Assembly: GCF_001548675.1 (NCBI RefSeq)
Contig: NZ_CP010834.1
Location: 1,647,501-1,711,500 of the forward strand
Origin: Methanobrevibacter sp. YE315
GTDB taxonomy: Archaea > Methanobacteriota > Methanobacteria > Methanobacteriales > Methanobacteriaceae
Direction of reading: 5' to 3'
DNA length: 64,000 nucleotides
Every line of letters begins with the position of its first letter. The stretch's first letter is position 1. The notes below the pieces were generated by a model, which was given only the letters and a program-made list of their open reading frames with translations, had not been told where the DNA came from and did no database searches. Positions 23,825 through 34,794 of this stretch are shown here, one piece after another. Both the position numbers and the translations under genes were made by a program.

Positions 23825-23908
23825 CGCCGGGACCGGGATTTGAACCCGGGTGATCATAAGATCATCGGATTAGCAGTCCGACGCCGTACCTGGCTGGGCC
23901 ATCCCGAC
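23825..23908 (-). tRNA. tRNA-Ser(GCT)
   Basis: An 84-nt cloverleaf on the minus strand. The acceptor stem GTCGGGA pairs with TCCCGGC, with discriminator G. The anticodon stem-loop CGGACTGCTAATCCG has anticodon GCT (AGC at 23872-23874 on the plus strand). A long variable arm TGATCTTATGATCA identifies a serine tRNA, and the T arm contains GGTTCAAATCC. No CCA is encoded; a T-run follows. A TATA-like CATATAA near 23931-23937 is about 26 nt upstream of the 5' end. Confidence 0.97.
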
Positions 23909-23988
23909 AATTAAAAAACAGTATAATAAATTATATGTTAAAACTTATTTATAAACTTAATTATTTATATAAATGGCATGTTCAAAAG

Positions 23989-24282
23989 TGGACTAATCTT
24001 AAAAATATAAGTGATCTAAAAAACTCAACTCCACCCCGGGATTCTACAAGCATTGAAATGTTAATAGTAAAGCTGCTCCCTTCCGGGCCTGACCCGTTCC
24101 TATATCGAAGATGACTTATTTTTACCCTCCAGTAAAAATCTCACCACCACCAATCCTGCAGGACGAGGTTTCTATGCTGTTTTTTCTAGGCTTATATCCT
24201 CTTGAAAAGCCGCCTTTTGAACTTCGACTGCACCAAAGGGGGTGTGTGCTTACAGAGGACCCCTAACCCTCCAGTCTAGCCA
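23989..24282 (-). ncRNA. ffs: Signal recognition particle 7S RNA
   Basis: The minus strand carries the universally conserved SRP domain IV core, GGTCAGGCCCGGAAGGGAGC (near 24080-24100), within a roughly 290-nt structured GC-richer segment. The ends can be placed because GGCTAGACT near 24281 can pair with AGATTAGTCC near 23990-23999, closing helix 1 as archaeal SRP RNAs do. A TATA box at 24304-24312 sits about 26 nt upstream of the proposed 5' end. It lies just upstream of the tRNA-Ser gene on the same strand. End coordinates are good to a few nucleotides. Confidence 0.95.
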
Positions 24283-24303
24283 ATCTAATTTTTGGATTTA
24301 ATA

Positions 24304-32608: not shown

Positions 32609-33544
32609 ATGAGTATCAAAAAAGTCGTTGTCGCCGGAGGAGGCGTACTCGGAAGTCAAATCGCTTACCAGTCTGCATTTTGCGGATTTGATGTAACTGT
32701 TTGGTTAAGAAGTGAAGGTTCAATTGAAAGAGCCAAACCGAAATTTGAAAGATTGCTAAACATCTATTTAGGCAGCCTCGAACAAATGAAAACTGACAAA
32801 TCTGCATACTGCAGAGGATTCAGTAAAAAAGCTGACTTAAGTGAAGAAGAAATAGATGCCCTAAAAGAGCAAGCTCAAAAAGCATTTGATAGTTTAACCC
32901 TAACTACAAGTTATGAAGAAGCAGCAGATGATGCAGATCTTGTAATTGAAGCAATAGCAGAAGACCCTGCTCAAAAAATTGCATTCTACGAAGAATTAGC
33001 AAAATATCTTCCAGAAAAAACAATAGTTGTGACAAACTCATCCACCTTACTTCCAAGCCAATTTGCAGAACACACAGGAAGGCCTGAGAAATATCTTGCA
33101 TTCCACTTTGCAAATAACATATGGGCTCAAAACACTGCTGAAGTAATGCCACACCCTGGAACCGAACAGGAATACTTTGATGCAATCGTCCAATTTGCAG
33201 AAGACATCAACATGGTCCCTATAAAAGTATTGAAAGAACAGCCAGGATATGTGCTTAATTCATTGCTTGTTCCGTTCCTATCCGCAGGACAGGCCTTATG
33301 GGCTGAAGAAGTTGCAGACCCTGAAACAATTGACTTGACTTGGAGACTTGCTACCGGTTCTCCAAATGGACCGTTCCAGATTCTTGATATTGTGGGACTC
33401 GTAACTGCCTACAACATTATCATTATGGATCCTAGGTCTAAAGACCCTGAGACAACCCAGGGAAAAATTGCTTTAAAACTTAAAGAAAAAATCGATGCTG
33501 GCGAAACCGGTATCAATGCTGGAAAAGGGTTTTACGAATATTAA
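32609..33544 (+). CDS. 3-hydroxyacyl-CoA dehydrogenase family protein
   Basis: A 311-residue NAD-dependent dehydrogenase of the FadB/HbdH type. The Rossmann motif VVAGGGVLGSQIAYQSAFCG is at the N-terminus; the catalytic His region is HFANNIWAQNTAEVM, and the C-terminal dimer domain has GYVLNSLLVPFLSAG and GPFQILDIVGL. It would interconvert 3-hydroxybutyryl-CoA and acetoacetyl-CoA, an odd activity for a methanogen without beta-oxidation. Gut bacteria carry close relatives, so transfer is plausible. An AAGAGG ribosome binding site precedes the ATG. The true substrate is uncertain. Confidence 0.85.
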   Translation: MSIKKVVVAGGGVLGSQIAYQSAFCGFDVTVWLRSEGSIERAKPKFERLLNIYLGSLEQMKTDKSAYCRGFSKKADLSEEEIDALKEQAQKAFDSLTLTTSYEEAADDADLVIEAIAEDPAQKIAFYEELAKYLPEKTIVVTNSSTLLPSQFAEHTGRPEKYLAFHFANNIWAQNTAEVMPHPGTEQEYFDAIVQFAEDINMVPIKVLKEQPGYVLNSLLVPFLSAGQALWAEEVADPETIDLTWRLATGSPNGPFQILDIVGLVTAYNIIIMDPRSKDPETTQGKIALKLKEKIDAGETGINAGKGFYEY

Positions 33545-33660
33545 AATCCTTTTTTATTCTTTTTTTACCAAAATCCAATACAATTCCTTTTTCAACTAAT
33601 TTTATTGAAATTTGAAATTATCAAATAAAAACATTTATATAATATTAAAATATAAGTATT

Positions 33661-33795
33661 ATACGATGTGAAGAAAATTTCATGTCTGATAATGAAGACA
33701 TCAACCATTTTATAATCTCCAAAATGTGGAATATGTTTCATTACGGAAGTAGGAAAAACACAACTACTTCCACTCCCCCCTTTATTTTACGAAAA
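33661..33795 (+). ncRNA. Putative small RNA 1 of a tandem pair
   Basis: No convincing protein is encoded. A TATA box (ATTTATAT, about 33632-33640) sits about 26 nt before a conserved start, ATACGATGTGAA (33661-33672). An internal hairpin ATGTCT/AGACAT lies at about 33682-33701. Near the 3' end GGAAGTAG (33745-33752) pairs with CTACTTCC (33764-33771), followed by ACTCCCCCC and a T-rich stretch that could end transcription. The same order and motifs recur at 33872-34000, which supports a noncoding gene family. Size about 130 nt. Confidence 0.5.
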
Positions 33796-33871
33796 CTCGA
33801 CAATAAGATTGTTATCATTACTAATTTTTAAAAAAATAGAAAGATTTATAAATATTTAAAATAAAAATAAT

Positions 33872-34000
33872 ATACGATGTGAATTAATATACATATCTAA
33901 ACTAAAAATCACTCGGCCTTTTTTAAATGGTAAAAATTTAAAAAATGAACTCATGAAGTAGTATCAAAAATACTACTTCCACTCTCCCCTTATTTTTAAA
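33872..34000 (+). ncRNA. Putative small RNA 2 of a tandem pair
   Basis: A second copy 211 bp downstream of the first. It shares the TATA box (TTTATAAATA, 33845-33854), the same spacing to the start TATACGATGTGAA (33871-33883), a 3' hairpin GAAGTAGTA (33955-33963)/TACTACTTC (33971-33979), then CACTCTCCCC and T-rich DNA. The interior differs almost completely from copy 1 and has no open reading frame. Conservation of promoter, 5' end, hairpin position and C-rich tail but not of the middle points to a functional RNA. It ends next to the convergent dphB stop. Confidence 0.5.
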
Positions 34001-34002
34001 AA

Positions 34003-34794
34003 TTAAACATCATCAAGAATGCTTGAGTCTGCACCAGCGATTTCTACAAGATACTCCGCTTCAACAATGTGAAGTTTGGATGGAATTACAATACAATGTA
34101 GGGGCCCTCCAAAATCAAAACCAAGCAATTCTTTGATTTTACCTGCTTTTACACAGACATCTTTTGAACCTACACGTGCAATGCCCATAGCCAATGTATC
34201 TTCACTAATCAACCCTTCACGCTCCAAGGTATCATGTATATTCATCAAATATTCCAATCCCTGATTAACAGTCATGTACCGGTCTTTATGAGCTTGAATA
34301 TCAAGCAAAACAAGAGTATGCATGTCCATCTTCAAGTTCTCTTCAATCGCTTCATAAGGAGATTTTGGATAAAAGTTATAATCTGGGAAGGGAATTGTAG
34401 TTACCTTACCGAATTTATAGCCTTGAAGACCGGAAATGGCAGGCGCTGAAGACAATATTGATGATCCGTGAATAACTTCATAATCTATTCCTTTTTTAGA
34501 ACATTGAACTAGAAAATCACTATGGGTGGTTGCAATTAAAGGATCTCCACCAGTAATCAAAGCAACATCAGAAGTTTTAGCCTCATCGATAAACTTGCTT
34601 TCTTCTTCCACTTCATTTCTAACCAGAACCTCAATTTTTTGTCCAATCAGTTCTTCGATAGCATCGAAACTTGAACCGAACAACCTTGAAGTGAAAAATT
34701 CAGCATAAATCTTATCAACGTTTTTTAAACATTCCAATCCTTTAAGGGATATGTCTTTCTCATCAAATAATCCCAAACCCACTAAATAAAACAT
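34003..34794 (-). CDS. dphB: Diphthine synthase
   Basis: A 263-residue SAM-dependent tetrapyrrole-methylase-fold enzyme starting MFYLVGLGLFDEKDISLKG. GGDPLIATTHSDFL and the GIARVGSKD segment are typical of DphB/Dph5, which methylates the modified histidine of elongation factor 2 during diphthamide synthesis. Length matches the family. Divergent from trm5. Confidence 0.93.
   Translation of the reverse strand: MFYLVGLGLFDEKDISLKGLECLKNVDKIYAEFFTSRLFGSSFDAIEELIGQKIEVLVRNEVEEESKFIDEAKTSDVALITGGDPLIATTHSDFLVQCSKKGIDYEVIHGSSILSSAPAISGLQGYKFGKVTTIPFPDYNFYPKSPYEAIEENLKMDMHTLVLLDIQAHKDRYMTVNQGLEYLMNIHDTLEREGLISEDTLAMGIARVGSKDVCVKAGKIKELLGFDFGGPLHCIVIPSKLHIVEAEYLVEIAGADSSILDDV

Follow-up and report, generated by a model that had tools for sequence, protein, structure and literature searches.

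What function might be served by two related, apparently non-coding units that lie in tandem in the genome of Methanobrevibacter sp. YE315? They are found within a stretch of 64,000 nucleotides (hereafter the window, from whose first letter positions are counted), with a 3-hydroxyacyl-CoA dehydrogenase-type gene on their 5' side (32609-33544, + strand) and a tetrapyrrole-methylase-family gene, which we take to be dph5, on their 3' side (34003-34794, - strand). A preliminary description of this DNA had read them as two small RNA genes sharing a TATA box, an equal TATA-to-start spacing, 3' hairpins and C-rich tails, and our analysis bears this out. Two direct repeats, D1 (65 nt, 77% identity, spacing 211) and D2 (44 nt, 80% identity, spacing 209), connect copy 1 to copy 2 and span the promoter, the 5' end and the 3' end of both units. 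A whole-genome search with copy 1 retrieved copy 2 at E 4.9e-12, and the likeness of the two is therefore not due to chance. The sequences TTTATATA (33634, copy 1) and TTTATAAA (33845, copy 2) each begin 29 nt 5' of ACGATGTGAA (counted by hand), and exact TATACGATGTGAA, like exact CTACTTCCACTCYCCC, is limited within the window to the two units. From an architectural point of view, each unit begins with a TATA box and ACGATGTGAA; a middle that varies separates the 5' hairpin from a strong hairpin at the 3' side, after which come a C-rich run and finally T-rich DNA. Both units fold better than shuffled sequences, with z-values of -3.0 (copy 1) and -4.5 (copy 2). The features are as follows (A2 is one of two alignments introduced below; both ends of each RNA gene are predicted).

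33634-33780, + strand: copy 1 unit, from TATA box to tail
33634-33641, + strand: TATA box of copy 1, seen in the sequence and kept in alignment A2
33663-33780, + strand: putative RNA gene of copy 1
33664-33670, + strand: CGATGTG motif of copy 1, a likely regulator site, common to fdhC upstream regions of relatives
33665-33686, + strand: 5' hairpin of copy 1, from folding and pair counts in the alignments
33701-33725, + strand: antisense of the fdhA Shine-Dalgarno sequence and start codon in copy 1, 25 nt, perfect
33745-33771, + strand: 3' hairpin of copy 1, GGAAGTAG/CTACTTCC, from folding and pair counts
33772-33780, + strand: C-rich tail of copy 1, conserved inside the genus only
33845-33989, + strand: copy 2 unit, from TATA box to tail
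33845-33852, + strand: TATA box of copy 2, seen in the sequence
33874-33989, + strand: putative RNA gene of copy 2
33875-33881, + strand: CGATGTG motif of copy 2, seen in the sequence
33876-33897, + strand: 5' hairpin of copy 2, from folding
33910-33950, + strand: diverged interior of copy 2, without fdhA match in YE315
33955-33979, + strand: 3' hairpin of copy 2, from folding
33980-33989, + strand: C-rich tail of copy 2, seen in the sequence

The earlier suggestion that RNA rather than protein is conserved is supported by the genus alignment, in which a complete ATG frame of at least 20 aa is present in only 8 of 46 units. Searches with Rfam 15 returned above threshold just SRP RNA and tRNA for the whole window, both elsewhere than the two units; the two-unit region alone gave two chance matches below threshold (best SpF39_sRNA, 22.2 bits against a threshold of 60). 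The archaeal SRP RNA of the window adjoins a tRNA gene (23825-24286, - strand). C/D-box guide RNAs carry a box C (RUGAUGA) near the 5' end and a box D (CUGA) near the 3' end. None of the 46 units had both boxes, even when a single mismatch in box C was tolerated, and this assignment was rejected.

Copy 1 and the fdhA start site

In a whole-genome search, positions 33701-33725 of copy 1 matched perfectly over 25 nt at one other site, on the opposite strand (G000:C1:205275-205299) and 1.48 Mb away. This target reads ATTTTGGAGATTATAAAATGGTTGA and comprises the Shine-Dalgarno sequence, spacer, start codon and first codons of fdhA, of which copy 1 carries the reverse complement. FdhA is the alpha subunit of formate dehydrogenase (721 aa; NCBIfam TIGR01591, 918 bits with a cut-off of 666), and its gene is the second of the fdhCAB operon, after the formate transporter gene fdhC and ahead of fdhB; the cluster further includes fdhD, FmdE, an ABC transporter, moaA, mobB and an HTH_1 regulator. 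A terminator-like hairpin with a T-run is located between fdhC and fdhA (L003:1454-1480), with similar remnants in relatives, and may set the fdhC:fdhA ratio.

The complementarity exceeds chance. Among 383 predicted start regions, taken from a 464-kb sample (the window and a further 400 kb of the YE315 genome), fdhA ranks first in duplex energy with copy 1 (-38.5 kcal/mol; next -29.6, median -16.7). With G-U pairs included the run extends to 28 pairs, as against a maximum of 14 among the other 382 start sites, and cofolding of copy 1 with the fdhA start site yields a gain of -23.7 kcal/mol. The 17-mer TGGAGATTATAAAATGG has 44 sites in the whole genome at up to three mismatches, versus 14 for a reversed control, and its exact form occurs only at fdhA and in the RNA.

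Conservation and co-change

If copy 1 acts on fdhA, how far does the relationship reach? A copy-1 query matched RNA and/or target in 56 of 60 genus genomes. A covariance search, which the preliminary description had recommended, did uncover further Methanobrevibacter copies: the model, made from 46 units, matched 57 of 67 genus genomes, or 56 after dropping G022, whose match is the fdhA site itself with no RNA gene, and 57 when G021, found by model R2, is included. The homologue of G033 lies at 761759-761898. By hand count, 28 of the 67 have two matches on one contig less than 500 nt apart, and the named records that carry the element (83 stretches) are nearly all Methanobrevibacter. A canonical fdhA start site but no RNA was found in G025, G037, G045 and G051, all of them multi-contig draft assemblies. 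A further TATA-led element, which may encode a remotely related sibling RNA, lies at about 1500-1640 of L468 (G051) and L473 (G005); its 5' hairpin is different (ACAAGTGA...), and one of its segments terminates in ACAATCTCCAAAA.

The interiors of the units had been described as differing. This is true of YE315; among relatives, however, no element is better conserved than one in the interior, which in some of them is present in both copies. In the 46-unit alignment this element is the antisense, the hairpin loops and flanks being variable. Alignment A1 was selected by BLAST to copy 1 and A2 by antisense presence, so that antisense conservation in A2 is partly built in. For the central stem, at whose end the antisense loop sits, pairing averages 6.72 within units versus 6.12 (sd 0.15) when units are crossed, with 0 of 200 crossings as good; this comparison covers 43 of the 46 units (three were skipped, their core not being located), and its Fisher value ignores relatedness.

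Both an RNA and an fdhA start site were available for 52 genus genomes; G007, G019, G030, G052 and G059, for which units and no fdhA start site were available, stand outside this set. The longest Watson-Crick run between the two reaches at least 15 pairs in 44 of the 52 (at least 20 in 40, 15-19 in four) and stays below 15 in eight. Three of these eight keep partial pairing, namely G010 (one-base insertion), G098 (one change) and G021 (17 pairs with one G-U), and five have no useful pairing (G008, G013, G028, G043 and G096). The fdhA start site is altered and the RNA antisense retained in G028 and G043, whereas in G096 the RNA is altered and the start site retained; these three genomes are exceptions to a co-change of RNA and target.

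Outside the genus, models R2 and R3 were each run on 40 genomes and a DNA search covered 34. RNA homologues exist in at least four further genera, convincing ones being found in g9 (G076, G077, G078, G081, G082, G083, G087, G088, G091, G092 and G093), g6 (G068), g3 (G062), g10 (G102) and g8 (G071, G072, G073 and G075), and one homologue in g7 (G069). Tandem pairs are likewise present in G071 and G072. An R3 match in G113 was discounted, as it appears to be coding sequence. The RNA gene sequences of G066 (L461) and G092 (L459), which belong to different genera, are identical; for this reason the G066 match was handled as contamination, which it probably is. Twelve genomes of genera without an FdhA match (g11-g14 and g16) gave only background plus one match in coding sequence, and the R2 and R3 models found no convincing RNA in the fdhA-bearing genomes G061, G063, G064, G065, G067, G133 and G137.

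Judged from these sequences, the RNA loop and the fdhA start site have changed together in some other genera (G062, g8 and g7). The controls cited here are start sites of one genome, reused for RNAs from other genera. For G062, GGAGATTATATAATGG at the start of fdhA is answered by CCATTATATAATCTCC in the RNA; both have shifted by the same base, and they form 17 Watson-Crick pairs, a run attained by 0 of 382 controls. The g8 genomes have GGAGAGTATT as start site and AATACTCTC(T) as RNA loop, which gives nine pairs in G072 and 11 in G075; the same start site and loop are present in G073. That pairing in g8 and g7 is short counts against the antisense reading. The g8 loop alone as query is matched by 0 of 382 controls, and a 100-nt stretch as query is matched as well in 5 of 382 (G072) or 0 of 382 (G075). 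The 11 pairs of G069 lie farther upstream (3 of 382 controls as good with a 100-nt stretch), the 22-bp pairing of G068 has slid toward the coding side, and G102 has no clear pairing (nine with G-U). Co-changing pairs of this kind are a rare natural record of archaeal RNA-target coevolution.

Copy 2 and further candidate targets

Both copies carry the fdhA antisense in several relatives, and the second-best run is at least 15 in 9 of the 28 genomes with two or more units, a count that may take one unit twice, as in G034. Copy 2 of YE315 has diverged, as it has in the closest relatives, and in YE315 the fdhA match is lost; it may represent a retargeted or a decaying sibling. BLAST of copy 2 against the YE315 genome matched no start site, and none stands out in the duplex scan of the 383 start regions (best -27.6, next -26.7 kcal/mol). 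The fdhC start site, which has a 9-nt AUGAGUUCA match to copy 2, came third of the 383 without standing out from the rest, and a comparison by eye did not show this match in other copy-2 units.

The preliminary description had envisaged a C/U-rich segment pairing with ribosome binding sites. Pairing with such a site is what the sequences suggest, but through the interior loop and with fdhA as partner, not through the C/U-rich tail. Its example, CCACTCT of copy 2 with AGAGTGG, does not hold up, AGAGTGG being a chance-level 7-mer that occurs three times in the window on both strands. That the tail nevertheless serves as an anti-Shine-Dalgarno sequence acting on many G-rich sites is very unlikely: ACTCCCCC is well conserved inside the genus, but the tail is absent from the inspected homologues in g6, g8 and g9, and copy 2 has no outstanding start site. 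On these grounds the tail was rejected as the pairing segment.

Alternatively, fdhA might be one among several targets, together with molybdenum-cofactor genes and a gene that we call X. Gene X (L360:1501-2262; in YE315 from 1384959) lies directly 5' of mobA and encodes a conserved membrane protein with no Pfam or NCBIfam match. It is found in 59 of 67 genus genomes, and its start site is close to that of fdhA; in YE315 it is the second-best start-site match of copy 1, with one mismatch in 17. Exact GGAGATTATAAAATG also lies 5' of MobB, TOBE and MoaE genes, in single genomes each. Against this, the gene X spacer varies in length and pairwise identity at -16 to -1 is 0.55 versus 0.93 for fdhA, a conservation control that downgraded gene X as a sure second target. 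The 15-mer GGAGATTATAAAATG moreover lies 5' of argC, rubredoxin and other genes, and may thus be just a common strong ribosome-binding site. Taken together, we consider a wider target set rather unlikely. Start-site conservation was itself downgraded as proof of pairing: fdhC scores 0.80, and the upstream regions of cbiT and trm5 are also conserved.

Proposed mechanism and known systems

How might copy 1 act on fdhA? Methanobrevibacter of the rumen and gut have formate as a main substrate, and fdh expression decides between formate and hydrogen use in these methane producers. Copy 1 has its own promoter apart from the target locus (TATA box 29 nt 5' of ACGATG in both units, kept across copies), and from the promoter, the hairpins, the conserved complementarity and its co-change in other genera we infer that copy 1 is transcribed and that its RNA pairs with and represses fdhA. 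Very probably, its product is an antisense small RNA, trans-encoded and about 120 nt long, that blocks fdhA translation, and it probably switches off formate use. We envision that the central hairpin loop exposes the exact complement of the fdhA Shine-Dalgarno sequence, spacer and start codon, and that pairing would keep ribosomes off fdhA and lower the amount of formate dehydrogenase, while fdhC, the transporter gene upstream on the same mRNA, would be left untouched. Conceivably, pairing at the fdhA start site might instead activate or protect fdhA, for example by shielding it from a nuclease or by altering fdhC-fdhA structure. The fdhC-fdhA gap folds into the terminator-like hairpin and a weak start-site hairpin, so that pairing could alter processing; yet the duplex covers the Shine-Dalgarno sequence and the AUG, which initiation needs single-stranded, and pairing of this kind was judged inhibitory for sRNA162, the one comparable archaeal case considered here (PMC3510493). 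Activation or protection is improbable.

When would a repressing RNA be made? The RNA begins with ACGATRTGAA, a sequence that persists even in g8 despite a different 5' stem there, and CGATRTG recurs at a fixed place about 205 nt upstream of fdhC. It is present within 260 nt in 33 of 54 distinct fdhC upstream regions, with 0.8 expected in shuffles, and in 5 of 372 control genes; these controls are genes predicted in a single genome, among them some internal to operons. In YE315 a degenerate CGATATT takes the place of the motif. A similar element lies in G134 5' of a ferredoxin/polyferredoxin pair, from which a TOBE-type (molybdate-binding-like) gene diverges, and in G085 5' of a Peripla_BP_2 transporter gene that resembles one in the YE315 fdh cluster, in whose promoter CGATRTG was looked for and not found. 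Being common to the RNA start and the fdhC upstream region, the motif suggests one regulator for both, of formate or molybdenum/tungsten genes as far as identity and signal can be guessed from such sites. A first candidate for this regulator is the HTH_1 protein of the fdh cluster (196145-197011 of the YE315 genome). The occurrence of the motif upstream of fdhC, and in G134 and G085 close to where protein genes begin, might also mean that the conserved 5' end is a DNA operator only, that the copies are alike for the sake of promoter function and that the RNA is unimportant. This is highly improbable, as it leaves the 25-nt fdhA antisense unexplained; moreover, the 5' stem varies mostly in ways that G-U pairing tolerates (96.6% of the cells are paired), though two-sided change occurs at only two pairs.

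The motif of fdhC lies upstream of a conserved TATTTAAATA box, whereas that of the RNA gene lies downstream of the TATA box. Long conserved elements (CACGATGTG...CCATCATGATTTATCATTA) are seen upstream of the TATTTAAATA box in fdhC upstream regions such as L124 and L140, and look like activator sites. With less certainty than for the antisense RNA itself, we therefore picture a single CGATRTG regulator that would act on the RNA gene at the transcription start, as a repressor would, and on fdhC from upstream of the TATA box, as an activator would; the RNA would then be produced under conditions in which fdhCAB is to stay silent. On this basis one can tentatively draw up a formate/molybdenum switch whose two outputs are opposed, though we would not count it as probable: the regulator would activate fdhCAB and repress the antisense RNA in a coherent feed-forward loop, and the RNA would stop residual translation of fdhA at times of scarce formate or metal. 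If true, this would be an archaeal metal- or substrate-sparing RNA; one methanogen family would have retained it in several genera that bear fdh, and its tandem duplication would let a spare copy be retargeted. A conserved RNA with a directly readable target, in any case, makes fdh control testable.

Full-text literature searches found no small-RNA regulator of methanogen formate dehydrogenase. In Methanococcus, fdh is reported in a review to increase under hydrogen limitation (PMC3600222). The closest parallel is sRNA162 of Methanosarcina mazei, which pairs in trans with the ribosome-binding site and start of an operon's second cistron, with discordant operon expression being proposed (PMC3510493). 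Copy 1 is predicted to do the same in another methanogen. The two differ in lineage, target and structure (a single-stranded linker for sRNA162 versus a hairpin loop, compared by description). Complementarity in the copy 1 family, unlike that of sRNA162, extends to 20-26 perfect bases in the majority of genomes and is shared by several genera; sRNA162, for its part, is demonstrated, whereas the RNA of copy 1 is predicted. Staphylococcus IsrR pairs over the Shine-Dalgarno sequence and AUG of an fdhA mRNA and has C-rich single-stranded regions (PMC9410917). It resembles copy 1 in its formate dehydrogenase target site and its C-rich regions, but is bacterial, iron controlled and directed at several targets via those regions; the likeness would represent convergence, homology not being expected. 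The kind of RNA is known; the family, the target and the lineage are new.
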